Assembly (NCBI GenBank): GCA_030748485.1
Contig: JASMLW010000506.1
Coordinates: forward strand, 1 to 64,000
Reading direction: 5' to 3'
Length of the DNA: 64,000 nt
From: Pirellulaceae bacterium
Lineage (GTDB): Bacteria > Planctomycetota > Planctomycetia > Pirellulales > Pirellulaceae
The position numbers were made by a program, and so were the translations under genes. Shown piece by piece: positions 2,701-50,686 of the stretch. Every line of letters begins with the position of its first letter. Within the stretch, counting starts at the first letter, position 1. The notes beneath the pieces are model-generated. The model worked only from the letters and a program-made list of their open reading frames with translations, had not been told where the DNA came from and made no database searches.

Positions 2701-3014
2701 GTTTAGATGATCCTTGATTACTCAAGGTGAAGTCTTTGTTGGGTCGACAAGGACTCATTATACGTCGACTTTGCAACGCCAACAAAGCCACTTTCAACTC
2801 TTCTGTTTGTCGTCAAGAAAGGGACTTGACAAGCAGCAATCCGCACCGACAAGTTTTGCTAGCGATGAGAATTGACGTTGACAAACACACACGCGCGCGC
2901 CGCCCTTGCCCGCGCGCCCAGGAGCCTCGTCCCGCAAACGGCGCAATCACTGCGCTGTCGCACGAGAGACGAGCAAGAGGCGAGCAAAAGACGAGCAAGA
3001 GACGAGCAATACGA
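2701..3014. other. intergenic region with short GACGAGCAA repeats
   Basis: No convincing gene is seen. Bases about 2968-3009 hold four imperfect tandem copies of a roughly 11-base unit, (GA)GACGAGCAA, reaching to within a few bases of the stop codon of the CPBP protease gene. An open frame running rightwards here has no family features and overlaps that gene antisense. Confidence 0.6.
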
Positions 3015-3952: not shown

Positions 3953-3974
3953 GGAAGGACGTAAACGTTTCAGA

Positions 3975-4060
3975 GGGGCGTTTACGCCCCCATCCGCCGC
4001 AGGCGGCCATAGGCCCGTGCTTGAGCACGGGTGAACCAGGCGTTCCAGCTGCAACCAACG
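3975..4060 (-). repeat. three-hairpin element, copy A (inverted)
   Basis: On the minus strand three adjacent stem-loops can form: CCCGTGCT-CA-AGCACGGG (4014-4031), CCGCC-TGC-GGCGG (3994-4006) and GGGGCGT-AA-ACGCCCC (3975-3990). They are preceded by the conserved lead TTGCAGCTGGAACGCCTGG (4036-4054). This copy runs opposite to the other copies. Confidence 0.85.
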
Positions 4061-4443
4061 CTCCATTCTCGCGTTACCCCGCGCCATCGCGTTCCACCCT
4101 CGCGTCGCCCCGCGCAGCCGCGCTCCACCCTCGCGTCGCCCCGCGCAGCCGCGTTCCAACACTTCGTCGTGGCTGCAACCAATGATCCAATTTCACGTCG
4201 CCGAGCGCGTTGCGATCGCCAGACCGATCCGACACTCGACACTGCCGGTCATGTGGGCGCGTTCGTTGATGCAGCCGACCTCAGAATGCAGTAGCGCGAG
4301 GCCGCGGGGAATTTGGAACGTCGTTAGCAGCAGCGACGGAGTCATTGGAACGCGGACTCGCGAGGCGGCGGGGATTGGAACGCCGTTGCAGCCGCGACGG
4401 AATCATTGGAACGCGATGGCGGCGCGGCGACGCGAGAATGGAG

Positions 4444-4528
4444 CATTGGTTGCAGCCGGAACGCCTGGTTCACCCGTGCTCAAGCACGGGCCTATGCCGC
4501 CTGCGGCGGAAGGGGGCGTAAACGCCCC
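4444..4528 (+). repeat. three-hairpin element, copy B
   Basis: Same order as the other copies: lead with GGTTGCAGCCGGAACGCC, hairpin 1 at 4473-4490, hairpin 2 at 4497-4509, hairpin 3 at 4513-4528. Stems are 8, 5 and 7 pairs. Confidence 0.85.
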
Positions 4529-4797
4529 TGGTCGTGCGCGGCGGCCAAGGCGCCAAGATCATCGACAAGCGTGTCGAGGACCCATTGATAGTAGGTAATC
4601 GTGGGTAATCGTAGGTCGTAGGACGGGTCTCCAGGCCCGTCGAATGGAACGGCAAGCCAGCAATCGACGATCCCGAGCCGAGCGAGATTCCAGACCCGGC
4701 GATTGAGTTTCCTTTGGAGATAGTTCCGGAAACTCCCGGCGTCTGTCGAATCGGGTTGGACCCCGACGGAAGCGAAGACGAGGCGGCGCGGCTCGCG

Positions 4798-5225
4798 AGG
4801 GTGGGACGCGATGGCGCGGGGCGACGCGAGGGTGGAACGCGATGGCGCGGGGCGGCGCGGGAATGGGACGCGATGCGCGGGGCGACGTGAGTGGGACACG
4901 ATGGCGCGGAGCCACGCGAGAATGGAGCGCGGTGGCGCGGAGCCACGTGAGAATGGGACGCGATGCGCGGGGCGACGTGAGTGGGACACGATGGCGCGGA
5001 GCCACGTGAGAATGGAACGCGATGCGCGGAGCCACGTGAGAATGGGACGCGATGCGCGGGGCGACGTGAGTGGGACACGATGGCGCGGAGCCATGTGAGA
5101 ATGGAACGCGGTGGCGCGGGGCGACGCGAGAATGGAGCGCGGGGGCGCGGAGCCACGTGAGAATGGGACGCGATGCGCGGGGCGACGTGAGTGGGACACG
5201 ATGGCGCGGAGCGACGCGGGAATGG
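4798..5225 (+). repeat. GC-rich minisatellite, about 14 units
   Basis: Tandem units of about 30-33 bases alternate GATGGCGCGGGGCGACG with GATGCGCGGGGCGACGTGAG and GGAGCCACGTGAGAATGG variants. Higher-order blocks of about 120 bases (for example 4865-4950 against 5040-5100 and 5160-5215) are nearly identical, which implies recent duplication of multi-unit segments. Confidence 0.8.
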
Positions 5226-5227
5226 AG

Positions 5228-5313
5228 CGTTGGTTGCAGCTGGAACGCCTGGTTCACCCGTGCTCAAGCACGGGCCTATGGCCGCCTGCGGCGGAATGGG
5301 GCGTAAACGCCCC
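5228..5313 (+). repeat. three-hairpin element, copy C
   Basis: Lead GTTGGTTGCAGCTGGAACGC, hairpin 1 at 5257-5274, then the CCGCC/GGCGG hairpin, then GGGGCGT-AA-ACGCCCC at 5298-5313. Nearly identical to copy D 200 bases away. Confidence 0.85.
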
Positions 5314-5430
5314 TGGTCGTGCGCGGCGAGGGTGGAGCGCGGTGGCGCGGGGCGACGCGAGAATGGAGCGCGGTGGCGCGGGGCGACGCGAGAATGGAAC
5401 GCGATGGCGCGGGGCAACGCGAGAATGGAG

Positions 5431-5516
5431 CGTTGGTTGCAGCCGGAACGCCTGGTTCACCCGTGCTCAAGCACGGGCCTATGGCCGCCTGCGGCGGAAT
5501 GGGGCGTAAACGCCCC
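5431..5516 (+). repeat. three-hairpin element, copy D
   Basis: Same structure: hairpin 1 at 5460-5477 and hairpin 3 at 5501-5516, followed by a short unique stretch and TGACTAA-type repeats read on the opposite strand. Confidence 0.85.
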
Positions 5517-5566
5517 TCTCGTCCTGCCTCCTTAGTCATTAGTCCTTCGTCATTAGTCATTCCAGG

Positions 5567-5605
5567 GGCCGCCTGCGGCGGAAGGGGGCGTAAACGCCCC
5601 TTTTT
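5567..5605 (+). repeat. partial three-hairpin element, copy E, with T-run
   Basis: Only hairpins 2 (5569-5581) and 3 (5585-5600) are present. Hairpin 3 is directly followed by TTTTT (5601-5605), so this copy also looks like a Rho-independent terminator on the plus strand, although no plus-strand gene precedes it. Confidence 0.7.
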
Positions 5606-5641
5606 GACACGTTGACGTCCTTCCCCCTTAGTCATTCGGCC

Positions 5642-6493
5642 TTAGTCATTTTTCACGTCGCCCAAAACGCATCGCAAACCGAGCGCGTCGTCTTTGATTT
5701 CCTTGTAGATGCCGCCGCCCTTGATTTCGATCGTCACCTCGCGCTTCAATCCGCGAAACGAGCCCTGCCGGCAGGACGAGGTCAGCAGTTCGGCCTTGTC
5801 TTTCCAACTGCCGCCTCGAATAACGCGTCGTTTGGCGTCGCCGCCTTTGACCCAGGCGGATCCATCCGTCGGCCCGCCTTCCAACGACTGGTGGGCGTGG
5901 TCGGCGCACCACTCCCACAGATAGCCGTGGATGTCGTAGAGTCCCCACGCGTTCGGCTTCTTGGCTCCCACCGGCGGATCGTTTCCGGACGCATTTCCCG
6001 TGAACCATCCGTAGTCCGTCAGCTGGTCCACTTCGTCGCCAAACGAGTACTTGGTCGTTGTGCCGGCGCGAGCGAAATACTCCCACTCCGCTTCGGTCGG
6101 CAGCCGGATTTCCTGTTTGTCGCCAATCAACTTGGCGGCTCGCATGAGCCTGGTGGCCTTTTGGCAAAACTGTTCGGCTTCGTCAAACGTGAGCATTTCG
6201 ACCGAGTTGCGTTTTCCCGTCCAACGACTTGGGTTCGATCCCAAGACAGCCGTCCACAAGTTTTGCGGTACTTCGTACTTGGCGACGTGAAAATCGTAGT
6301 CGAACGTCACCGTGCGAACCGGCTGTTCAGCCGGCGAACCCGCCGCCGATCCCATCTTGAACGACTTGGGGAATTTGCCTTTCCCCGGAGTGACGTGGAC
6401 GAACTCGGAGTGAAACAGCTTGAGCAATTCGGTTTGTTCGACGTTTGGTTCGGCGGAGATCATCACGGCGGTCAGCAGAATTGCGGCGGTCAT
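5642..6493 (-). CDS. formylglycine-generating-enzyme-type (SUMF1) domain protein
   Basis: The 283-residue product starts with a short hydrophobic stretch, a possible signal peptide (MTAAILLTAVMISAEP). It continues with an FGE-sulfatase fold: MGS near residue 47, then motifs of the type VTFDYDFHVAKYEV, LPTEAEWEYFARAG, GLYDIHGYLWEWC and RVIRGGSWKD, and a late cysteine in SSCRQGSF. Family members activate sulfatases or serve as ligand-binding domains; planctomycetes encode many of both. Whether this one is catalytic is not clear. The last three codons and the stop (KND then TAA) are read from a TGACTAA-type repeat, so the 3' end has been reshaped by the repeat. Confidence 0.85.
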   Translation of the reverse strand: MTAAILLTAVMISAEPNVEQTELLKLFHSEFVHVTPGKGKFPKSFKMGSAAGSPAEQPVRTVTFDYDFHVAKYEVPQNLWTAVLGSNPSRWTGKRNSVEMLTFDEAEQFCQKATRLMRAAKLIGDKQEIRLPTEAEWEYFARAGTTTKYSFGDEVDQLTDYGWFTGNASGNDPPVGAKKPNAWGLYDIHGYLWEWCADHAHQSLEGGPTDGSAWVKGGDAKRRVIRGGSWKDKAELLTSSCRQGSFRGLKREVTIEIKGGGIYKEIKDDALGLRCVLGDVKND

Positions 6494-35508: not shown

Positions 35509-35797
35509 CAGGTGTCTTATCTGCTTGGGCCGTCTCGAGGAATTCACCGAGTGGTGCGGCCGCTGTTTCGTGTGCCGGTCGAATTGGATGTGAAACCGGC
35601 GTCCCGCTCGCGATGATCGGGCACGCACATACAACGCAAGCGGCGTGCCGTATTGGCTCGGTTCCGCCAGTTTTTCCATAAGTCGTGGCGAGTCAACCAC
35701 TTCTAGAAGCGGCTCGAAACCGAGTTGCGTTCGAGCCGCACAACTCGCCCCAACGACCACGCATTTTTTTCGCGGCGAGGCCGAAAAAGTTGCAAGG
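35509..35797. other. intergenic gap within the polysaccharide run
   Basis: 289 bases without a supported gene, between VanZ and the next glycosyltransferase, both on the minus strand. An imperfect inverted repeat with an A/T run lies near 35764-35795 (TTTTTTTCGCGG and CCGAAAAAG) and could be a weak terminator. The downstream glycosyltransferase set may therefore have its own promoter here. Confidence 0.4.
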
Positions 35798-36429: not shown

Positions 36430-38634
36430 TTATGTCCATTCAGAATCGAGGAACAGCGGTTCAACGCGATTGAGCACGACGCCGAGCACGGGGACGCCGG
36501 TCGCGGTCAACCGCTCAACAACCTTCTTGACTTCGCTCGACCGGAAGCGGCGGCTCTGCACAACGAAGATAATCGCGTCGGCCTGCGCGGCCAGGATCTC
36601 CGCGTCGGCGTTGCTGGCCGCGGGTGGTCCGTCCACCAACACTACGTCGTATTGCTGAGAAAGCGAGTCGAGCAGGTCGAACATTCGCCGCGAGCTGAGC
36701 AATTCCGGAACGACTCCGTGCTGTGCTCGGGGCACGCAGGTAACGCCGTACAACGTCGTCGGCCATTTGACATCGGTGAGGCTGGCGGCCGACCCGGAAA
36801 GGTAGTCGCCGAGCCCTTTCATCTCCTGTTGTTGAGCGACGACGATCTCGCGGACGTCACCGGTCGGCTTCGACTGCCTCACGTCGCCGTCAACCAACAC
36901 AACTTCCTCGCCCTGTTGTCCAAACGACTTTGCCAGGTGAGCGGTGACGGTCGTGCAACCTTCGTCGATCCCGGCGCTGACGATGAAAAAGCGAGCGCCA
37001 CGTTGCGGCACGCTGGCTCGAATTCGTCGCACGACGGCGCGAATCGGCTCGATCAAGCAGCTCTCCCATCCTTCCGGAAGGACATTGCTGTCCTTTTGAA
37101 CGTCGGGAAGCAGGCCGAGCACTTGTTGGTCGAGTTTGAGACTGACTTCGGCCCGCGACTTGACGGTCGTGTCCATCAATTCCCAGCCCACCAGAGCAGC
37201 GAATCCCACGACCGCTCCCATGCCGGCGATCAGCACGCAGAATATCTTGCGGTAGCTTTTGGCCGGCACGGTCGTCGGCACCGCATTGGAGACGAACGTA
37301 AAGTCGGGCGAATTGGAACTGACGATCGCCTCGAGTCCGGCCAAGGTATCGCGGAGTCCGTCGGCTTCCTTATGCCATTCGGACAGCAGCCGCGGGTCGA
37401 TCGAGTTGGGCGGCGGTTGGAAGTCCATCAACCGGTACAGCTCCTTCTCCAACTCGCGCCGGCGAACCTGTTGAGCACTAAGTTTCTCGAGCAGTCCGGT
37501 GAGGTTCAGTTTGATGCGTCCGAGGTTCGACTCCAATTCGCGCAGCTTGACGCTCGTCTGAATCGAGTTGGAGCCGTTTGCGGCGAGTCGATTCATGGCG
37601 GCGTCGCGATCGTCACGCAACTTGCGCGCTCGTTCCGAGTCCTCCGTGGCGGCGAGAAATTTCTTGTATTGCGCCTCGTGCGCCGCCAGTTGGGCGTCGC
37701 TCATGAAACCGCGGCCGTGAAGTCGCCGGGAGTTCTTCAGCCGCGTTTCCCACTCGGCTTTGTCAATCTCGTTGATTCGCTGTTGCTTGTCTTCATTAAT
37801 GGCGTTGGAGAGCCGTTCGATGCGCATGTTGGTCACCGACGGCGGCTCGCTCTTGGCCGCTTCGGCGCGGTCGTGAGCCAGTTTCTCTTTCTCTTCTTCA
37901 ATCTGTGAATTCAGTTCGGCGATCTGTCGCTCGAGACCGCGCTTCTCAGCCAGAGTCGCGTCGTTCTCCTGTCCCACCGACTCGATTCGATTGCGGAACT
38001 GAACGATGTTCTGCTGGCGAGTCTGAGATTCTCGCTGCATCTGCTCACTGGCCCCCGAGTTGCGGATCTTCAGTTCAACATTGTCGAGTCTTTTTTCCAC
38101 GTCGCTGATGATGTTGGACAGTTCGAGGCGGCGCATCTTGTGTTGTTCGGCGATGAAGACCTGAGCGAGCGTATTGGCGATGGGAGCCGCGTCCTCAGGC
38201 GAATTCCATTTGACTTGGAACACCAACAACTGGCTGTCCTTGGGAATCTCGATACGGCAGGCGGCTCCGATCTGCTCCAGTGACGCCGCCAGTTTCAGTC
38301 GCAGTCGAGTCTCGGCCAAGTTCTTCTTGATCTTGACCATGTTCAACAGAGTCTTGATCGACGGCGGTTCGTACATCCCGCCGAGCAGTTCCTCCGATGG
38401 CGGGCGATAACTCAGAACCGCTTCTGTCTGCCAGATCCGCGGTGCGAAGACGACACTCATGGCGGCTCCGGCTCCGCCGCAGAGCACGAACCAACTCAAA
38501 ATCCACACTCGCCACTTCCACACGCCCTTGGCGACGGTCAGGATGTCGAACGGCAATTGCTGCATGCCGCCCTCAGGTGGACTGAGGCCGTTGTTGGGTG
38601 TGTCGGTGTTGGATTCGAGAAGTGGTAAGTTCAC
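36430..38634 (-). CDS. Wzz-type chain-length protein fused to degenerate BY-kinase
   Basis: A 734-residue protein. Wzz N-terminal region with membrane helix near 40-65, a long coiled-coil periplasmic part (about 165-400), second membrane helix near 462-485, then a BY-kinase-type ATPase domain (about 525-725). Walker A' (VVLVDGDVRQSKP, Asp582/584) and Walker B (DVVLVDGPP, Asp668) are present. Walker A reads SAGIDEGCTTV with Cys560 where catalytic Lys is invariant, and there is no C-terminal tyrosine cluster. It probably controls polymer length and export, but autophosphorylation is doubtful. Confidence 0.9.
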   Translation of the reverse strand: MNLPLLESNTDTPNNGLSPPEGGMQQLPFDILTVAKGVWKWRVWILSWFVLCGGAGAAMSVVFAPRIWQTEAVLSYRPPSEELLGGMYEPPSIKTLLNMVKIKKNLAETRLRLKLAASLEQIGAACRIEIPKDSQLLVFQVKWNSPEDAAPIANTLAQVFIAEQHKMRRLELSNIISDVEKRLDNVELKIRNSGASEQMQRESQTRQQNIVQFRNRIESVGQENDATLAEKRGLERQIAELNSQIEEEKEKLAHDRAEAAKSEPPSVTNMRIERLSNAINEDKQQRINEIDKAEWETRLKNSRRLHGRGFMSDAQLAAHEAQYKKFLAATEDSERARKLRDDRDAAMNRLAANGSNSIQTSVKLRELESNLGRIKLNLTGLLEKLSAQQVRRRELEKELYRLMDFQPPPNSIDPRLLSEWHKEADGLRDTLAGLEAIVSSNSPDFTFVSNAVPTTVPAKSYRKIFCVLIAGMGAVVGFAALVGWELMDTTVKSRAEVSLKLDQQVLGLLPDVQKDSNVLPEGWESCLIEPIRAVVRRIRASVPQRGARFFIVSAGIDEGCTTVTAHLAKSFGQQGEEVVLVDGDVRQSKPTGDVREIVVAQQQEMKGLGDYLSGSAASLTDVKWPTTLYGVTCVPRAQHGVVPELLSSRRMFDLLDSLSQQYDVVLVDGPPAASNADAEILAAQADAIIFVVQSRRFRSSEVKKVVERLTATGVPVLGVVLNRVEPLFLDSEWT

Positions 38635-38673
38635 GGTGCTCTTCAGTGTGTTGCGGTGATCTCGTTTTCGCGA

Positions 38674-40254
38674 CTACGAAGCCTCCGCCGGGGTGGTCGA
38701 CTTGCCTGCCCTCCAGCGCCGAATCCATGGCAGTTTTCTTTCCAAGATCGTCCACTCGGACGATGTAATCGCCATCGCCACGAAGGCGGCTCCAAAGACC
38801 GCGGTGGCGCCGCCCATCAACAGCGCGAGTTCGATCAACGAGCTCGGCTCGCACCAGTGCCTCAGCAATAGGCAAGCTGTCAGAGACAACAGTGCGGGGC
38901 GAGTCACCGGACCGACCGTCGTCGACCAATACTCGACCGCCCCCACCTCGTAATCACGGCACACTTTGCGGACGACGAACAGCATTCCGATGACGCCAGT
39001 CGCGGCAATCGTGGCGAAGGCGACTCCGGGCAGACCGAACGGTATGATCAGCATCAGACTCAATCCCAAGTTCACGACGGCGTTCAGAATAGACGTCGCT
39101 GCGACATAGCGATGCCCACCTGTCATTCCCAACACGTTCGAGGCGCCCTCGTGCAGAACTTTGAAGTGCATCGCGCCGATCAGCATCGCCATGATCGGTC
39201 CGGCTAAGCGAAACTCTGGGCCGACCCACAGCGTCATCGCCTCGCCCGCCCAGTACATCGCCGGGATCGAGATCGCCGCCAAAGTCGCCAGCCCAAACTT
39301 GCTGGAGGTGAGAAACGCAGCGCGGACTCCCGCCCGGTCACCGGCTCCATGCATCTCGGCGATCAAGGGAGTGAAGACATTGATGAATTGTTTGGTGAGT
39401 TGCAGAACCTGTTCGGCGATCTTGAGCGCCAGGGCGTAGACGGCCACGGCGGCCAAAGGCAGAAACATTTTGACTACGATCGGATCGGTGCGCAGCAGCA
39501 CGACCGTCGCGATGTTTGTGATCAGAGCGAACGAACTGAACGCTGCCACTTGCCGAAACACACGCCGGTCGAACTTTCCCCATCTCACTCGTAGATCGGG
39601 CGTGCTCCATCGGCAGACGACGAAGAACATCAAGTGTTCAAGAAAGAAGATCACCGCGTTCAAGGCGGCCAGGACGATCAAGCCCCCACCGGCGTGCAGT
39701 GCGAACGCCGCCAAAACCGCGTAAGTCAGATAGGCTGCGATCCGCACAAGGTTGACGGCAAAGATCCGTTGCTGTCCGAACAGCACGCCCAGAAACAGAC
39801 TCAGAGGAAGATTGAGCGCGACTTTCGCCGCGAGCATCAGCAGGATGGCGATCGCCTTTTGCTGCTGCGCGGGGGCGATCTGAAAGATTTCGCTGAAGAA
39901 GAAAGCCAGTCCGATCCCCATCAGGCCGATCGTCGCGGCCATCAACACGTAGACCAGCAGCAGCGTGCTGACGAGCCGGTCGCGCTGGACGGTGTCGCCC
40001 GCGCCGCGAAATTGTCCGACGAACTTCACGGTCGCGGTGGCCATGCCGCAATCGAGCAACTCAAAGTAGCCGACCACGCACATCACCAGCATCCACAGCC
40101 CGAACTCCTCCTGGCCGATGTGCTTGATGATGAACGGCGTGAGCAAGAACATCCCCGCCATCATGACGAAAAACCGCAAGTAGTTGCTGGCGGCGTTCAA
40201 CATGACCGTACCCGTCCGGGCGGCGGCTCTGTCTGCTAGTTTTGTTTCAACCAT
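38674..40254 (-). CDS. polysaccharide flippase (Wzx/MOP family)
   Basis: About 526 residues with some 12-14 hydrophobic helices. It starts MVETKLADRAAARTGTVMLNAASNYL and has a typical early MVMFL-type helix (LLTPFIIKHIGQEEFGLWML). The Wzx-like polysaccharide transporter pattern recurs in both halves. It would flip lipid-linked repeat units across the inner membrane. The chosen start leaves 17 bases after the preceding stop. A 28-residue upstream extension would overlap the phosphatase-type gene. Confidence 0.88.
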   Translation of the reverse strand: MVETKLADRAAARTGTVMLNAASNYLRFFVMMAGMFLLTPFIIKHIGQEEFGLWMLVMCVVGYFELLDCGMATATVKFVGQFRGAGDTVQRDRLVSTLLLVYVLMAATIGLMGIGLAFFFSEIFQIAPAQQQKAIAILLMLAAKVALNLPLSLFLGVLFGQQRIFAVNLVRIAAYLTYAVLAAFALHAGGGLIVLAALNAVIFFLEHLMFFVVCRWSTPDLRVRWGKFDRRVFRQVAAFSSFALITNIATVVLLRTDPIVVKMFLPLAAVAVYALALKIAEQVLQLTKQFINVFTPLIAEMHGAGDRAGVRAAFLTSSKFGLATLAAISIPAMYWAGEAMTLWVGPEFRLAGPIMAMLIGAMHFKVLHEGASNVLGMTGGHRYVAATSILNAVVNLGLSLMLIIPFGLPGVAFATIAATGVIGMLFVVRKVCRDYEVGAVEYWSTTVGPVTRPALLSLTACLLLRHWCEPSSLIELALLMGGATAVFGAAFVAMAITSSEWTILERKLPWIRRWRAGKSTTPAEAS

Positions 40255-40271
40255 CGTTTCGTCCAACACCT

Positions 40272-41483
40272 TCAGGCCGTGGCGTACGACAACGCCGCGG
40301 TCGTTTCGTCCAACGGCTCCGGCCGCGGGCCGCCACACCGATCGACTTCCGCTTTCATCAGATCGTAAAGATCGTCGAGCCGTTGGGGCGGTTTGTCGAC
40401 GGCCGCTGTACTGGCGAACAAGGCGACCGAATCTTCGTGACTCGGGTCGTAGCCGTGCATGCCCGGAACGTGCGTATGATTCATGAAACTCGGTGTGATC
40501 AGCGCTCCCGGATTGAGTAGGAACATGGCGTCGCCATAGCGCCGGTCAGCAAAGTCGGCTCCCCATTGCGAAAGCTCGTCGTCGGTCAAGATGCGGCCGT
40601 AGTCGAGTTCGCGGAGCCGCGCCCTAATCCGCCCCTCGGCGGAATCGTTGAGGAACCAGAAGCGGCCCATCGTCGAGTCGTACATGGCGGCGTAGTCGCG
40701 GCCGAAGACGAGTCCCAGTTCGTCGATCTCGCTGACCAGATCACAATTGCGAGTGACATCCGCCATGCCGTGATCCGAGAAAACGTACAGCCGCACTTCG
40801 TCGTAGTGCTCCTCGGCCTCGTCCAGCAACTGGCGGAACTGGTTGTCGTACCAGGCGATCTTCTCACCCACTCGCGGAGACTGAGTGCCGTCGGCGTGCA
40901 TCACTCCATCGAGCTCGGCAAGATACAGATAGCCGTACCTGATGTCGCCCTGCCTGATTTGCGCCCGCATGTCAGCTATGTTGTGCTGCTCATTCCGGCG
41001 CCAATCGGAAAGATGAAAGGGAACGTTGTTCCGCCGCAGGTAGTCGAAAATCGTCGGCGTGCCATTGTTCAATCCGCCCGGTTGATAGATGTCCCGTTTC
41101 TCGGAATAGTCGAATTCCGGTAACCGATTGAACGGCACGTTGTAGATCTGAAAATACCCCGTGTAGCCGTTCATTCGCTGAACCAGTTTGCTGATCTGCC
41201 GGCGAACGCGACCACGCTTCGTGATTGTTTGCGGCAACAGACTCAGCCAGCGGCACGTCCCGAAGGGCGAGTTGTCGGGGTCGTAGCAGAAGAACGAGAA
41301 GTGCCCGTGCACGTTTGGCAACTGCCCAGTGATGATCGTCGGGTCGCAGGCGCACGAGTAGCCGAGAATCGTCTCGAGTGGCTGAGCTGTCCGCAGTCGG
41401 TCCGCCAAGAACGAATGCTCTTGGAAGATTCGCCAGCCAAAGGCGTCGACAAAGGTGAAGAGAGCGAGTTGTTTGGAGGACAT
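40272..41483 (-). CDS. alkaline-phosphatase-superfamily phosphodiesterase/pyrophosphatase
   Basis: A 403-residue soluble protein. FTFVDAFGW gives the first metal Asp, CDPTIITGQLPNVHG the nucleophile-loop Thr region, ELDGVMHADG a further Asp/His, FSDHGMAD the conserved S-D-H-G and PGMHGYDPSHEDS the final His/Asp. This is the metal-ligand order of the nucleotide pyrophosphatase/phosphodiesterase branch. There is no signal peptide. Within a polysaccharide cluster it may cleave nucleotide-sugars or lipid-linked phosphodiesters; the substrate is unknown. Confidence 0.82.
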   Translation of the reverse strand: MSSKQLALFTFVDAFGWRIFQEHSFLADRLRTAQPLETILGYSCACDPTIITGQLPNVHGHFSFFCYDPDNSPFGTCRWLSLLPQTITKRGRVRRQISKLVQRMNGYTGYFQIYNVPFNRLPEFDYSEKRDIYQPGGLNNGTPTIFDYLRRNNVPFHLSDWRRNEQHNIADMRAQIRQGDIRYGYLYLAELDGVMHADGTQSPRVGEKIAWYDNQFRQLLDEAEEHYDEVRLYVFSDHGMADVTRNCDLVSEIDELGLVFGRDYAAMYDSTMGRFWFLNDSAEGRIRARLRELDYGRILTDDELSQWGADFADRRYGDAMFLLNPGALITPSFMNHTHVPGMHGYDPSHEDSVALFASTAAVDKPPQRLDDLYDLMKAEVDRCGGPRPEPLDETTAALSYATA

Positions 41484-41666
41484 GTTGGTCTCCGCTGGAC
41501 AGGTCCGAGCGCAACGCGGGCGCAGTCGATCAAACTCAACGTGTTCGCAAAGCTCATTCCAAACGAGCGGGGATTCCCTAAAGCCGTTTCCGACTAACAG
41601 GTTGCGCTGAGAGAGCCACTTGGCGGCCGCTACGGGAAGACAGAAAAATCTGCAGGACTCCGTGCG

Positions 41667-42125
41667 CTAACCCTGAGTCTTCTGCACGATCGGCGTCGAG
41701 TCGGATTGCGAATCGACCAGCTGTCGAACGTCGCCGAACTCGACCAAGTGGTGCACGCCGATCAATTCCAACATCGAACGGACGTCGCCGCGAAGCCGAA
41801 CCATCGTCACCCCACAACGCATCCGGTCGGCCGTTTTGAGAAACCGGATCAAGGCCGCGATCGCGCCCCGTTCCAGCGAGCGAACATCCGCCATGTCGAG
41901 CAGAATCGGCGTCTTCGCTTGGAGTTGAGCCGCCAGCGAGCGCCAAACGCGATGGGCGTCGTGGCCCGAGCGGATCGCCGGCACGGCTACCGCACCCGGA
42001 ATCTCGACGCGGCCCAACCCTCCCGAGTCGGCGCGGGATGTATCTTCGCGCGAGGCTTGCCGGCGCGAGTCTTCCGCCGTGTTCGAAACGCTAGTCGCTG
42101 TACGATCAACCGTCGCTTCCGCCAC
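41667..42125 (-). CDS. STAS domain (anti-sigma factor antagonist-like) protein
   Basis: About 152 residues. A variable N-terminus of about 45 residues is followed by a STAS fold (VEIPGAVAVPAIRSG... TPILLDMADVRSLERGAIAALIRFL... HHLVEFGDV). The usual D-S-S-G phosphorylation turn is replaced by a sequence around LERGA, so control by a serine kinase is doubtful. The GTG start has AGGAG seven bases upstream. It is the first gene of the minus-strand run. Confidence 0.78.
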   Translation of the reverse strand: MAEATVDRTATSVSNTAEDSRRQASREDTSRADSGGLGRVEIPGAVAVPAIRSGHDAHRVWRSLAAQLQAKTPILLDMADVRSLERGAIAALIRFLKTADRMRCGVTMVRLRGDVRSMLELIGVHHLVEFGDVRQLVDSQSDSTPIVQKTQG

Positions 42126-44470: not shown

Positions 44471-45547
44471 TTAGTACGACAGCTGGTAGCGTTTCAACTT
44501 GTTGTAGATGCTGCGTTCACTGATTCCCAATTGGCGTGAGGCCATTGCCTTGTTGCCGCGACATGCTTCGAGTGTGTCGACGAGCGCTTGGCGTTCGATG
44601 TCCGCCATCGTTCGCCCGGCGAGCGATCGGGAGGCCGAGTTGTCCTGTTCGTCGGCCGGCGGCGGGAAGACATCAAAGGCGAGGTCGGCGGCGGAGATGA
44701 CGTTCCCACGACGAAACACGCAGGCTCGCTCCAAGACGTTTTCCAGTTCGCGGACGTTGCCGGGCCACGGATGTCTCATCAGGGCGAACATCGCCTCCTC
44801 TTCGATGCGGGGCGGCGGCTCCTCGGCTCGCGCCGATATGCCCAAGATGATCTGGTGAGCCAATTCCGCCAACAAATCGCGCCGCTCTCGCAGCGGCGGC
44901 ACGCGCAACGCCAGGACGTTTAGCCGAAAGTAGAGATCCTCGCGAAACGACTTCGCTTGGCAGTGTTCGGCCAGATTCTGATTTGTCGCCGCGATGACGC
45001 GTACGTTCACCCGGTGCCGCCGATCGCTGCCGATTCGCTGAAACGACTGATCTTGCAGGAACGTCAGCAGTTTGGGCTGTAATTCGATCGGCATGTCGCC
45101 GATTTCATCCAACAGCAATGTACCGCCATCCGCCGCTTCGACCCGTCCAGGGCGATCGGCGACGGCGCCGGTGAATGCTCCTTGAGCGTGCCCGAACAAC
45201 TCGGCTTCAATCAGATCGCGAGGAAGCGACGCGCAGTTCACTGTCACGAACGGATGAGCCGCTCGGGGTCCGAGGCAATGGATCCATTTGGCGATCGTGG
45301 TCTTTCCGGTGCCACTCTCTCCCGTGATCAACGTCGTCAACTCGTTTTGGGAGACGCGACGCGCTTGATCCATCAACCGCCCCATGGAGGCTCCGTGGGC
45401 GGCGAGCAGAGGCGGCGAATCAACTCGCCAATCCTCAACGATTTCTTCACTGGCGGTCACGGAACGTTGTACATGTCCAACCGTCGCGGCCGGACGCCGG
45501 CGGCGCGACGATTCTATCGGTGCGTCGATAGATTTGCGGAAAGTCAT
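44471..45547 (-). CDS. sigma-54-dependent transcriptional activator (no receiver domain)
   Basis: About 358 residues. After a short N-terminus of some 45 residues comes a complete AAA+ activator domain: Walker A GESGTGKT at 76-83, the sigma-54-contacting GAFTGA at 123-128, Walker [13 protein letters not shown], sensor VRVIAATNQ, and R-fingers [14 protein letters not shown]-terminal Fis-type helix-turn-helix follows ([34 protein letters not shown]). No sensory module is fused. It diverges from the PEP-CTERM operon across a 416-base gap with a -24/-12 site, so it is the likely activator of that operon. Confidence 0.92.
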
Positions 45548-45963
45548 GGGCGGTCGATCAAGTGTGAGGAAGCGGCGGTTTCCGCTGGCAGGCGGTCGCG
45601 AAAACGTAAGCCACGCGCAATGGACCGGCAAATCGTCCCCGAAAAATTGACATGGTGGCTGTGCACAATCTGCAGTCTCCGTCGTCTTCGTTCGCGGATT
45701 TCCGCCATCCGATGCGATCGCGACAATCGTCGCTTCCGAACATCGCAGCGCGCGTCAGCCTGCAAAAGCGAGTACCACCGCCGCCTCGTTCTGCAACATC
45801 TGCAGATCTCACGTCGAGGCGGCGAGCGACAACCGACAAAGACGTCTCCGTTTCCCCCCAGAGGAACTGAACTTCTTCACGGGTCCGCTTTGGCGCGCCG
45901 GTTGCGGGTTGTTGGGCCGAACGAAAAAGAATGAACGGGGCGTGAAAGCAAGAGAGAGTCAAC
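45548..45963. other. divergent intergenic region with sigma-54 site
   Basis: 416 bases between the activator gene and the PEP-CTERM gene. It holds the -24/-12 promoter listed separately and two copies of ATCTGCAG (45668-45675 and 45798-45805), about 110 and 240 bases before the predicted start of transcription. That is a usual distance for activator binding, but the assignment is speculative. Open frames within it lack coding character. Confidence 0.55.
45891..45905 (+). promoter_or_regulatory. sigma-54 (-24/-12) promoter of the PEP-CTERM operon
   Basis: TGGCGCGCCGGTTGC matches the consensus TGGCACGN4TTGC at all fixed positions but one (A to G) and has the required GG-to-GC spacing. It lies 58 bases before the GTG start and next to a divergent gene for a sigma-54 activator, which makes a chance match less likely. 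Confidence 0.68.
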
Positions 45964-46815
45964 GTGAATCGATTGCAACGATCTTTACTGGCGGTGGTGG
46001 CGGCGTTCGTCGTATCAGTGGGATTCGCGCCGTTGCCGGCGTTGGCTCGCGACGCCAGAATCCAATCGGCCGCGCGACCCTTTGACTTGGACATCGTCGC
46101 TCCCGTACAGCGGCGCCGTAGCGACACCGCATCGACCTCCTTCTACAGAAATGAACTGCCCATATTCAGCTCGCTGATGGGCACTGATTTGAATCAGCAA
46201 GTGTCGACCGACTCGATCGCCACCACGCTGCTCGATCCAGCCAACCTGGTCATGCAGTCCGACTACAACGCGCGGGCTTACTTCGTTGGCGAAGATGCGG
46301 GATATCACAATACGCTCGGCTTCAATACGCAGGGCACGGGAATCTCGTCGGGCAACCCGCAATTGATTTTCCCCGATGTTTCGGAAGGCCGTCGCCGCTC
46401 GTACACCAATCCCGTCAAGTCGGGCGACTTCGTCGAGCTGGGCAACCTGTCGGCGGGCACGAAGCTGGACTTCTTTCTGATCGCCGACGGCGCTCGAGGC
46501 GGGCGATCGGTGTTCTCCACCAACGCGTCAACAAACCCAGACAGCATGCGACACATCTTTGCTCATGCGTTCACTCAACCCAACTCGCCCTACCTGATGC
46601 TCGCTTTCGAGGACATGCTGGGCGGTGGGGATCAAGACTACAACGACTTGTTGATCGCCGTTGACGTCGGCGCGGACAACCTCAACAAGATGATCAAGAC
46701 GGTCGGCGCGCCCGAGCCGTCGATGCTGATCACGATGGGAACGCTTGTCAGCATCGGCGTCGCCTACACGCGGCGGAAACGGAAACAACGAAATGAGATC
46801 GACGACATTGAATAG
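45964..46815 (+). CDS. PEP-CTERM sorted surface protein with DUF4114-like domain
   Basis: A 283-residue exported protein. A signal peptide (hydrophobic core LLAVVAAFVVSVGFAPL, cleavage near ALARD) is followed by a beta-rich domain with FVGEDAGYHNTLGF and FEDMLGGGDQDYNDLLIAV, the DUF4114 signature whose acidic residues may bind calcium. The C-terminus is a PEP-CTERM signal: Pro-Glu-Pro at 250-252, hydrophobic helix 253-268 and a basic RRKRKQR cluster, but with seven extra acidic residues after it. The exosortase in the same operon should cleave it there. The start is GTG. Confidence 0.88.
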   Translation: MNRLQRSLLAVVAAFVVSVGFAPLPALARDARIQSAARPFDLDIVAPVQRRRSDTASTSFYRNELPIFSSLMGTDLNQQVSTDSIATTLLDPANLVMQSDYNARAYFVGEDAGYHNTLGFNTQGTGISSGNPQLIFPDVSEGRRRSYTNPVKSGDFVELGNLSAGTKLDFFLIADGARGGRSVFSTNASTNPDSMRHIFAHAFTQPNSPYLMLAFEDMLGGGDQDYNDLLIAVDVGADNLNKMIKTVGAPEPSMLITMGTLVSIGVAYTRRKRKQRNEIDDIE

Positions 46816-46861: not shown

Positions 46862-48802
46862 ATGAGAAAGCAACTAATTGGAGCCGCGGTCGGCGCCATC
46901 GTCTTATTTGGCGGTGGCGGTTTTTGGCTAATGGGCAGATGGCGATCGGCTGCTGAGCAGCAGCGGCGCTTGACGTACGCGCGGCAACTGATCGAAGTTG
47001 ATCGCGCTGACGAAGCCCTGCAGATTCTGTACTCCAAGCAACTCGCGAACGATGACGAGATTGTGCAGGAGCGGTCCTCGCTGCAAGTCGACGCGTTGGC
47101 CAAAACGGGCGAGATCGGCGAGCTGCGGCAAAAGTTCTACACGTCGCCGGAGGCGTTCGCCGAGAACGAGTCGGCTGCCTTGCTGGCGGCTCGCGCATTG
47201 GCCGTCAGCGACGACGCGGCGGCCTTTGAGCGATTGCGCGAAACTTGGCGCGGTCGCGAAACAAAACAGGCGGAGTGGTTCGCAATCGAAGCCGACGCCC
47301 TCCTGCGAACCGGCAACGTCGCCAAGGCGGACTCACTGCTCCGTGGCGAGAAGTTTGAGGGAGCCAACGACGTCGGTCGACTTATCCGCCTCGCGCTGCT
47401 GAGCAGCAAGCAGCCGGAAGTCGCCTGGCAGTTCCTGCAACGGGCCTACGAGCTCGATCCCCGCGACGCCAACGTCCGCTCTTTCCGCGGGCAGATTCTG
47501 GAAACGCTTGGCCGCCGCGAACAGGCCCGAGTCGAGTATGTGGCGGCCTACGTCGCCGACCGAGACAACGCGGCTATGTGTGATCAACTGGGTGAGTTCT
47601 ATCGCCGCTGCGGCAACTTCACTGGCGCTCAACAAACATGGGCCGGCATCGACGCCAAGCACAATACTGACTTCGTCGAATTGAAGAGGTGGTTTTGGAG
47701 CCGAGCAGCGCTGCCGTACGGCGAGAAACGTTCGTTTCCTCCGGGAGCCTGGCAACCGCTCGTCGATTTCCTCCACGGATTGCCGGACGACAGGTTTTGG
47801 GATGCGGACGCGTATCTCCACGTATCCAATCACGCTCGCGTCGCCGCCCAACGACAAGAGGTCTACTGGCTGCGGCTCCTCCAGATGCTCAAGGACGGCG
47901 ATGAGAAAGGAGCCGCCCAGCTGCTGCAAGAGAATACGTTCGCCAACACTTCCTACTCGGCGGATCTCGAACGCGCTCTCCGCTTGGTGCTGCAATATCG
48001 TGAGAGCGGAGATTTCCGCGCGGTGGGAGTCGTGCGAGAAGAACCTTCGCTCATTGCCCGACACCAGTTCTTCAATGATCTCGATCGGCTCCACTACGAG
48101 CAGGGGGGCCGTGGGCGGGAATCGCAGGTTCCGGCCGAGTGGGACGAATTGTTGCGCAGCGGTCATGCTCTCGGCGTCGTTTTTATGGCGGCCGGTTGGA
48201 CGGAGGCCGCCGTGCGGCTGATGGACGCCGAGCCGCTACCCGACTCGGCTCCCGCCTGGGCCGCCTACGGATTGACTCAAGCCATCCGCTTGAATCGCGA
48301 CGGTAAAATGGCGCTGCAGTTCGCCGATCGTCAACCCAAGTCAGACGTTCTCGAGTTGTTGCGGGGCGAACTGCTTCTCAGTCTGCAGCAAGCAGCCGAA
48401 GCGGAGCGAGTTCTCCAACCGCTCGCCGAACACGCATCGGCCGCCGGCAGCCGCGCTGGATGGCTGCTCGCGATCGCCGCCCTGGAACGAGGCGATGCGG
48501 CTGCGGCAAAGAAATGGGTGACCGGCAACCAGCTATTCCAGACCAGCCAGCTGGGACAAGAGACGCTGGCCAAGGTCGCCATCCTTGAAGGCGATGATGC
48601 GCAAGCGGCGGCGATCTACACAGCCATCGAGGAAGAGTCGGTCGAAGCGAAAGCTTTCTCAGCTCGCCGCGCGTTCGCGGCTGGCGACTGGGACCAGGCG
48701 GAGCAAGTAACGCGGGACCTAATCCAACTGTTGCCCAGCAACATGCAGCTACGCCAGAACCTACAAGCTATCGAACAGGCGCGATCCGAGAATGTTCAAT
48801 AA
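46862..48802 (+). CDS. membrane-anchored TPR protein of the exosortase operon
   Basis: A 646-residue protein with an N-terminal anchor (QLIGAAVGAIVLFGGGGFWLMG) and tetratricopeptide-like helical pairs through most of its length, for example AWQFLQRAYELDPRDANVRSF and RREQARVEYVAAYV. TPR proteins accompany exosortase and polysaccharide systems and may act as assembly scaffolds. Its last 11 bases overlap the exosortase gene. The specific role is inferred from position only. Confidence 0.8.
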   Translation: MRKQLIGAAVGAIVLFGGGGFWLMGRWRSAAEQQRRLTYARQLIEVDRADEALQILYSKQLANDDEIVQERSSLQVDALAKTGEIGELRQKFYTSPEAFAENESAALLAARALAVSDDAAAFERLRETWRGRETKQAEWFAIEADALLRTGNVAKADSLLRGEKFEGANDVGRLIRLALLSSKQPEVAWQFLQRAYELDPRDANVRSFRGQILETLGRREQARVEYVAAYVADRDNAAMCDQLGEFYRRCGNFTGAQQTWAGIDAKHNTDFVELKRWFWSRAALPYGEKRSFPPGAWQPLVDFLHGLPDDRFWDADAYLHVSNHARVAAQRQEVYWLRLLQMLKDGDEKGAAQLLQENTFANTSYSADLERALRLVLQYRESGDFRAVGVVREEPSLIARHQFFNDLDRLHYEQGGRGRESQVPAEWDELLRSGHALGVVFMAAGWTEAAVRLMDAEPLPDSAPAWAAYGLTQAIRLNRDGKMALQFADRQPKSDVLELLRGELLLSLQQAAEAERVLQPLAEHASAAGSRAGWLLAIAALERGDAAAAKKWVTGNQLFQTSQLGQETLAKVAILEGDDAQAAAIYTAIEEESVEAKAFSARRAFAAGDWDQAEQVTRDLIQLLPSNMQLRQNLQAIEQARSENVQ

Positions 48803-49607
48803 GGCCTACATCTACTTCGCGTTAATGCTCTGCCTGCCCGTTGTCGTTTGGACGCGAGACGACATCTGGATTTCCGGCGCCGCCACCGACACGCTTCCGG
48901 TCTTACTGGGCTTGCCGCTGTTCTTCTGGATCGGCGGTCCCTGGGAATGGCGCGAGCACCCCCCCAGGATAAGAGGCCGCTACATCGCCCTCTGCGCGTT
49001 GGGCATGGTGGCCGCGACGATGATGGACTTGACGTTTATCTTCGCGGCCTCGTGGACTCTCCTGTTGTGGTTCATGATTCGCAGCTACATCAAGGAGGAT
49101 CCGCTGCGACCACTCAATCGACTCATCGTGATTCCACTGCTCTCGTTTCCCTGGATCATTCTCGACGGCCAGGTGATTGGGTGGTTTTTTCGCCTGTCGG
49201 GTGCGTGTGTGGCCGAGGTCATCTTGTCCGCATTTGAACACGATTTCGCGCGACAGGGAACGCAGATCTTCGTTCGCGATGTCTGTGTTTCTGTCGGCGA
49301 AGCGTGCTCGGGTTTGAATTCACTGCAGGCCATGTTGATCGGCGGGTGCGTCATGGCGTACGCCGTGCTGGGTCAGCTGAGACGATTCTGGGTTGCGCTT
49401 CCCATGTTGGTCTTGGCCGCCTGGGTCGCCAACACACTACGGGTTGTGCTGACGGCGTTAGTCGCCGTTCGCGGTGATGCGGCCTACGTCAGCGGGTCGC
49501 TGCATGAATGGGAAGGCTGGTTGATGCTGGTCATCATGTTCGGACTGTGCGCGGCGATCTTTGCGACGATGCGGCCGCAGGACGATGTCGCGAGGGCAGC
49601 CGCATGA
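48792..49607 (+). CDS. exosortase
   Basis: A 271-residue protein with about eight membrane helices and the three exosortase active-site residues in order: Cys172 in EACSGLNS, Arg217 in ANTLRV and His238 in LHEWEGW. Exosortases are membrane transpeptidases thought to cleave PEP-CTERM tails and attach the protein to a surface partner. The PEP-CTERM substrate lies two genes upstream and an EpsI-like protein directly downstream. It may belong to a planctomycete exosortase subtype (possibly XrtU), but the subtype needs a profile search. Confidence 0.9.
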   Translation: MFNKAYIYFALMLCLPVVVWTRDDIWISGAATDTLPVLLGLPLFFWIGGPWEWREHPPRIRGRYIALCALGMVAATMMDLTFIFAASWTLLLWFMIRSYIKEDPLRPLNRLIVIPLLSFPWIILDGQVIGWFFRLSGACVAEVILSAFEHDFARQGTQIFVRDVCVSVGEACSGLNSLQAMLIGGCVMAYAVLGQLRRFWVALPMLVLAAWVANTLRVVLTALVAVRGDAAYVSGSLHEWEGWLMLVIMFGLCAAIFATMRPQDDVARAAA

Positions 49608-50686
49608 CGGACACCCCGGTCGCCAACATCGCCTGGCCCTCCAAGACCGGCGTGGTCACCCTGTTGTTTTGCGCCGGGCACTCTTTTGATTTGCTCGACA
49701 CCTGGCACACCAGCCCGTTGGATCGTTTCGCCTGGGTGGCGCTTGTCGTCTGGCTCTCCCCTTTGCCGTTCTTTCGCCTGTTTGATCGGAAGCGCGAGTT
49801 GCTGGGCTGCGAGAGCATGGTGCTGTACGCAGCCGCCGTGACGGCCTCCCTCATCGGGCAGTTGGGATGCGTCAACGCATTTGAGCACTTTGGCCTGATT
49901 CTGGCGGTCACAGGATTGCTGCGGTGGACGTGGCGCAGCTTGATTTGGATTTCCGCCGGCGTCAGTTGGATGCCCGCATTCGGCTGGCTCGCCAGTTCAG
50001 TAGCGCCCGACCAGGTGCTGACAATGCGCGTCGCGCTCGCCTCTGTGGGCGTCGCCATGGTCATCTCGCCGTTCACGCGGACGAGTTCCAATGCGATACA
50101 CACGAGCGAACTGAAGAGCTTCGTGTTGACCGGGGGAATCGTCGCCGCTGTGCTGATTGGTTGCCTGTGGCAGTTCGCTCCGATGGGCTCCGGCGAGTCA
50201 CGATTGTTGAGATTGCCGACCGACGGCCCGTCGTTTCGCAGCTGGACCGTGCCGTTGAAAGAGGAAGAGGAGCAGCTGCTCGGGGGAAGTCTGGCCAGCC
50301 GGCGGATGTACGACTTCAGCGGACGCCGCGCCATCGTCAGCGTGGTCGACGGCGGGATGAACCGGCACGCGGTGCACGATCCGCTCTACTGCTTCCGCGG
50401 AGCCGGTTACGAGATTCGCTCCGTGCGCCAATTCCCAGTGGACGGCGGCTACGCGAAACACGTCACGATCGCGCGCGATCGGAAGTCGACGGACATCGTC
50501 TACTGGTTCTCCAACGGACAGCGACGCCACGCCTCTGTAATCAACTATTGGTGGCAATCGACGCTGCGTCGGCTGTCCCTTGGTCGATCCGGTGCGGAGC
50601 CGCTGCTGGTGATTCTGCAGTTTGAATCGCCCGTCCACGATGTGGACTCAGTCCAACAGCAGTGCGAACCGCTGTTCTCTCTGTGA
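49604..50686 (+). CDS. exosortase-associated EpsI-like membrane protein
   Basis: About 360 residues from an ATG overlapping the exosortase stop (ATGA). The N-terminal half has about six membrane helices. The C-terminal half carries an EpsI-like domain with AVHDPLYCFRGAGYE (His258, Cys263), the H-x-P...C...G-x-G pattern of EpsI proteins. EpsI is usually a separate or exosortase-fused domain needed with the exosortase; here it has its own helical membrane anchor. The end of the gene is the end of the operon. Confidence 0.82.
   Translation: MTDTPVANIAWPSKTGVVTLLFCAGHSFDLLDTWHTSPLDRFAWVALVVWLSPLPFFRLFDRKRELLGCESMVLYAAAVTASLIGQLGCVNAFEHFGLILAVTGLLRWTWRSLIWISAGVSWMPAFGWLASSVAPDQVLTMRVALASVGVAMVISPFTRTSSNAIHTSELKSFVLTGGIVAAVLIGCLWQFAPMGSGESRLLRLPTDGPSFRSWTVPLKEEEEQLLGGSLASRRMYDFSGRRAIVSVVDGGMNRHAVHDPLYCFRGAGYEIRSVRQFPVDGGYAKHVTIARDRKSTDIVYWFSNGQRRHASVINYWWQSTLRRLSLGRSGAEPLLVILQFESPVHDVDSVQQQCEPLFSL

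Follow-up and report, generated by a model that had tools for sequence, protein, structure and literature searches.

A predicted sigma-54 promoter before a PEP-CTERM/exosortase operon of a Pirellulaceae bacterium, adjacent to the gene of a receiver-less activator

The -24/-12 word TGGCGCGCCGGTTGC at 45891-45905 of the window, the whole 64,000-nucleotide stretch of Pirellulaceae DNA analysed here, probably functions as the sigma-54 promoter of a four-gene operon encoding a PEP-CTERM protein and its exosortase, switched on by the activator encoded divergently at 44471-45547. The site and the genes on either side of it are listed below.

45891-45905, plus strand: predicted -24/-12 (sigma-54) promoter TGGCGCGCCGGTTGC of the PEP-CTERM/exosortase operon, predicted transcription start near 45917
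45964-46815, plus strand: PEP-CTERM protein with DUF4114 and a signal peptide, C-terminus APEPSMLITMGTLVSIGVAYTRRKRK, GTG start
46862-48802, plus strand: TPR protein of the operon
48792-49607, plus strand: exosortase (EpsH family, no named class), overlapping the TPR gene, from profile matches
49604-50686, plus strand: DUF3485/EpsI-like membrane protein, ATGA overlap with the exosortase gene, in an open frame that starts at 49508
44471-45547, minus strand: receiver-less sigma-54 activator of 358 aa, comprising AAA+ with GAFTGA, lid and Fis-type HTH, from domain matches

The promoter word and the operon behind it

The word TGGCGCGCCGGTTGC has the correct GG-N10-GC spacing and differs from TGGCACG-N4-TTGC at one base only (A to G at position 5). 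It lies within the 416-bp gap between the divergent PEP-CTERM and activator genes (45548-45963), with 58 bases between it and the GTG start at 45964. These properties, on which an initial annotation had based its reading of a sigma-54 promoter, were all confirmed from the sequence. That reading had been made dependent on the presence of rpoN, and a complete gene was found in the genome as one full-length copy (TIGR02395, 378.9 bits; RpoN box ARRTITKYRKK). Together with the adjacent activator, the PEP-CTERM/exosortase operon and the sites in related loci, rpoN supports the sigma-54 reading.

The short gaps or overlaps among the PEP-CTERM, TPR, exosortase and DUF3485 genes make a single operon likely. 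The first product carries the C-terminal PEP, membrane helix and basic tail of PEP-CTERM proteins in APEPSMLITMGTLVSIGVAYTRRKRK, and an exosortase is encoded in the same operon. It falls below the Pfam PF07589 cut-off (15.5 bits versus 20.7) and is still the best and only match to this model in the genome, which suggests a one-target exosortase; according to Haft et al. 2006 (PMC1569441), the model recovers just 22% of PEP-CTERM proteins. The exosortase itself is matched by PF09721 (79.9 bits versus 25.7) and TIGR04178 (51.6 versus 23), with no named exosortase class reached.

As a word, the site is unremarkable. Consensus sites with at most one mismatch number two in the 64-kb window against 2.15 expected, and across the genome TGGCNCGN4TTGC is no commoner than the reversed pattern (41 occurrences versus 45). 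Counting the consensus as proof was dropped, the count in the organism's own genome being no higher than chance, and the case therefore rests on position and on relatives. For position, a PWM was scanned over 22-52 kb, equal to 60,000 strand positions, at nine spacer lengths; the PWM only approximates published compilations, and since the spacer and strand controls share it, the comparison is fair. At the true spacing the top three matches were 45891 (13.5 bits), 35635 on the minus strand (12.7) and 41546 on the minus strand (11.4), the first two being also the two window matches with at most one mismatch. The second and third sites in the window lie before polysaccharide genes and a glycosyltransferase gene, respectively:

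41546-41561, minus strand: second -24/-12-like site TGGAATGAGCTTTGCG, 62 bp before a phosphodiesterase-like gene heading flippase and Wzc-like genes
36430-41483, minus strand: polysaccharide genes behind the 41546 site
40272-41483, minus strand: phosphodiesterase-like gene behind the 41546 site
38674-40338, minus strand: Wzx-like flippase gene behind the 41546 site
36430-38634, minus strand: Wzc-like gene behind the 41546 site
41648-41655, no strand: ATCTGCAG word upstream of the 41546 site, with a further TCTGCA at 41681-41686
35635-35650, minus strand: third -24/-12-like site CGGCACGCCGCTTGCG, in front of a GT4 glycosyltransferase gene whose likely start (35508) is about 126 bp away

All three top sites are located 57-131 bp before operon heads, zones that make up approximately 2.7% of positions, and none of the top three sites at each of the eight other spacings is so placed in the same 22-52 kb. 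Because two of the sites had already been noticed when the operon heads were picked manually, this result is strong but not independent support. The position of the site is beyond chance; the word alone is not.

Elsewhere in the window, positions 3970-5660 hold a tandem array of 31-bp period with a consensus near TGGGACGCGATGGCGCGGAGCGACGTGAGAA, parts of which are inverted and at whose bounds copies of GCCGCCTGCGGCGGAAGGGGGCGTAAACGCCCCT are found. The -24/-12-like words TGGAGCGTTGGTTGCA within this array were discarded as repeats rather than promoters. A shorter 11-bp tandem repeat, AGAGACGAGCA, is present in four copies at 2965-3009.

The divergent activator and its putative binding sites

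The product of the minus-strand gene running from 45547 to 44471 bears the Walker A motif, GAFTGA, AAA+ lid and Fis-type HTH of sigma-54 activators (bacterial enhancer-binding proteins). The GAFTGA-containing activator proposed earlier for this side of the gap is thereby borne out, with a Pfam Sigma54_activat match of 2.3e-65. Its start at 45547 is backed by alignment with a 352-residue ortholog in genome G008. No receiver domain was found in the protein by phmmer against the receiver of the L070 activator, and its assignment as PrsR (TIGR02915) was rejected on the lack of a receiver and a score of 295.1 bits against a cut-off of 502.6.

In a tree of 43 activators, the window protein groups with the G008 ortholog inside a supported clade (98/98) that also includes receiver-bearing activators located beside exosortase genes in G007 and G103; a wider supported clade (100/98) takes in activators from Verrucomicrobiota that are linked to the same cassette. 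The window protein's nearest relatives by sequence, at 59-61% identity, are likewise receiver-bearing, from the same family and encoded beside exosortase genes. Because these nearest relatives carry receivers, the receiver-less architecture probably arose by receiver loss within that group, which is the simplest reading. Close relatives of the activator in other Pirellulaceae (L059, L061, L062, L063 and L064) have GAFTDA, GAFTNA, GAFADA or GAFQGA in place of GAFTGA, and may no longer work through sigma-54.

Two putative activator sites were identified in the gap upstream of the promoter:

45790-45806, no strand: putative activator site TCTGCAACATCTGCAGA, a perfect 6-5-6 dyad of TCTGCA and TGCAGA around ACATC, about 93 bp upstream of the -24 element
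45660-45676, no strand: second putative activator site TGTGCACAATCTGCAGT, 13/17 identical to the first, its centre 130 bp upstream of the first

The initial annotation had suggested paired ATCTGCAG words as activator sites. These words, at 45668 and 45798 with a reverse copy at 45800 and a further copy at 41648, prove to belong to the two 17-bp dyads, and their half-site is common to the second promoter; comparative proof was not found and the sites stay putative. The combined dyad pattern, which was derived from these two dyads, matches only them in 8.73 Mb, both in this gap. Of the 29 copies of TCTGCA/TGCAGA in the window, 6 fall in the 543 bp that precede the 45891 and 41546 sites; no other 6-mer occurs two or more times upstream of both. 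No convincing activator word common to G007, G008 and the window was found, and TTTACA/TGTAAA, the ending of PrsR activator motif 1, is absent from 45548-45963.

Sites and activators in related loci

A search with the PEP-CTERM protein returned 80 GTDB loci (L082-L161), 76 of them with upstream DNA, mostly from Verrucomicrobiota with some from Chlorobi, Desulfobacterota, Lentisphaerota and Planctomycetota; some genomes contribute several loci, leaving approximately 15 independent genomes. The order PEP-CTERM, TPR, exosortase, DUF3485 is kept in most of the 80. This cassette with its DUF4114 PEP-CTERM protein is conserved over several phyla, and the exosortases tested from it reach no named class.

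Sense -24/-12 sites above 12 bits were present within 300 bp upstream in 18/76 loci at the N4 spacing, whereas nine other spacings gave 0-3 and the antisense strand no more than 3; above 14 bits the count was 14 at N4 versus 0-1 in the controls. Shuffled upstream sequences gave 1.1 sites against the 18 real ones, and random 300-mers from the same 76 loci contained a site in 1.4% of cases, compared with 23.7% upstream. The spacer and strand comparison is the main control, being independent of knowing the species. About three quarters of the 76 loci are without a strong site; judged by these scores, the promoter appears common but not universal among relatives. A nearby activator was not significantly associated with sites (7/14 versus 20/62, p = 0.23), and the test of sites against PEP-CTERM within the 80 loci (p = 0.67) is uninformative because nearly all have PEP-CTERM. 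In three Opitutaceae loci (L095, L124 and L135) a common TGGCA...TCGTGTT element is found shortly before the PEP-CTERM gene, possibly a lineage variant of the -12 element with GT replacing GC.

Closer to the window, DUF4114 genes of Pirellulales have sites in 4/7 cases with PEP-CTERM versus 2/27 without (Fisher p = 0.0096), the four positives being the window once and G007 three times. In G103, of the same family, all 10 sites above 14.5 bits on a 260-kb contig fall within 27 kb (C4:134126-160972). This cluster is an exosortase/polysaccharide locus (L208-L210, L070) that also encodes a receiver-bearing, PrsR-like activator, and several of its sites are shortly before glycosyltransferase, Wzc-like and epimerase genes. 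In G103 the PEP-CTERM gene comes after the exosortase gene, and the operon has TGGCATGTGGTTTGCT in front, upstream of its TPR gene. Only one close ortholog of the module is full-length, that of G008 (L068); it has a divergent receiver-less activator gene and no good -24/-12 site before its PEP-CTERM gene, the best being TGGCGTCGCACACGCA with 5.4 bits, 97 bp before the start. The G008 word TGGCATGACGGTGCA, with N9 spacing and thus a spacer one base short, was rejected as a promoter, spacer-3 words not being enriched in related loci.

These comparisons bear on which activator serves the promoter. It is unlikely, though the better of two competing explanations, that the site is a true sigma-54 promoter for which the neighbouring activator is not the one, or not the only one, with another activator of the genome or the paralog on contig C197 (52% identical) acting in trans. 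The genome offers 15 activator genes matching at E<1e-60, the dyads are not conserved in the G008 ortholog, which has a different 6-5-6 dyad, and for most perfect-site PEP-CTERM loci of Verrucomicrobiota the flank examined contains no activator. Set against this, the divergent adjacency recurs in G008 and, with a different activator lineage bearing an RWRKAGK-type HTH, at nine verrucomicrobial loci where the activator is divergent from the same gene, such that two unrelated activator lineages adjoin the same cassette in different phyla; the combined dyad pattern, moreover, is confined to this gap. A chance match in GC-rich DNA, with a sigma-70 or ECF promoter missed by consensus scans and an activator that regulates something else, is less likely still: chance alone predicts about two such words in the window, the consensus fits planctomycete sigma-70 promoters poorly and the site is not conserved in G008, but the enrichment before homologous genes is specific for spacing and strand, each of the three best window sites is placed at an operon head, sites cluster in G103, and no sigma-70-like promoter was found in a scan of 45400-46100.

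Proposed control and its relation to known systems

Under the preferred reading, control by the divergently encoded activator, RpoN-RNA polymerase would rest at 45891-45905 as a closed complex. The activator would bind the TCTGCA-N5-TGCAGA-type dyads at 45790-45806 and 45660-45676, loop to the polymerase and melt the promoter by ATP hydrolysis via its GAFTGA loop. Lacking a receiver domain, the activator is probably controlled not through phosphorylation but, like PspF, through its own abundance or a partner protein. It probably acts at the 41546 site before the polysaccharide genes as well, and surface protein, sorting enzyme and polysaccharide would thereby be made together. PspF-type activators consist of AAA+ plus a Fis-type HTH with no N-terminal regulatory domain, and their gene is divergent from the target operon. 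The window activator is alike in its domains, its lack of a receiver and its divergent orientation; unlike PspF, its closest relatives are receiver-bearing, and a PspA-like partner was not identified.

The -24/-12 motif, PrsR and PrsK were described by Haft et al. 2006 (PMC1569441), where the motif was common only to Proteobacteria and lay 71 +/- 38 bases from the start of PEP-CTERM genes, accompanied by an upstream activator motif. As in the PrsK/PrsR system (PMC1569441), the window has a -24/-12 site before a PEP-CTERM gene and a sigma-54 activator linked to exosortase and polysaccharide genes. It differs in that the activator is receiver-less and below the PrsR cut-off (295 versus 502.6), the upstream motif is without TTTACA, and the predicted promoter heads an operon that includes the exosortase itself. 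The pepA gene of Aquincola tertiaricarbonis likewise has a -24/-12 word, there a mapped, rpoN-dependent promoter (TGGCAC, CTGCTT) involved in floc formation (Xia et al. 2023, PMC9850573). That organism is a betaproteobacterium in which the activator is presumed to be PrsK/PrsR, and its downstream prsT is not rpoN-dependent (PMC9850573), whereas no long gap precedes the TPR and exosortase genes of the window. Planctomycetota are covered by a 2025 comparison of sigma-54 regulons (PMC12316311), which names neither exosortase nor PEP-CTERM. Judged against the open-access journal literature, the predicted site would extend a known promoter class beyond Proteobacteria, to Planctomycetota.

Little is understood of PEP-CTERM/exosortase sorting outside Proteobacteria, and the 2006 study (PMC1569441) did not settle how it is regulated there. 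On balance, we lean slightly towards sigma-54 control of exosortase/PEP-CTERM and linked polysaccharide genes as a general feature of the cassette across Planctomycetota and Verrucomicrobiota, exerted through at least two unrelated activator lineages, one having lost its receiver and one with a different DNA-binding domain; the logic known from Proteobacteria would then have been kept or re-created outside them. The proposed switch is directly testable, since it comes with an activator of its own, a delimited promoter and a candidate binding word. It would place the making of surface protein, sorting enzyme and polysaccharide under a single programme in a member of the Planctomycetota, a phylum known for life on surfaces.
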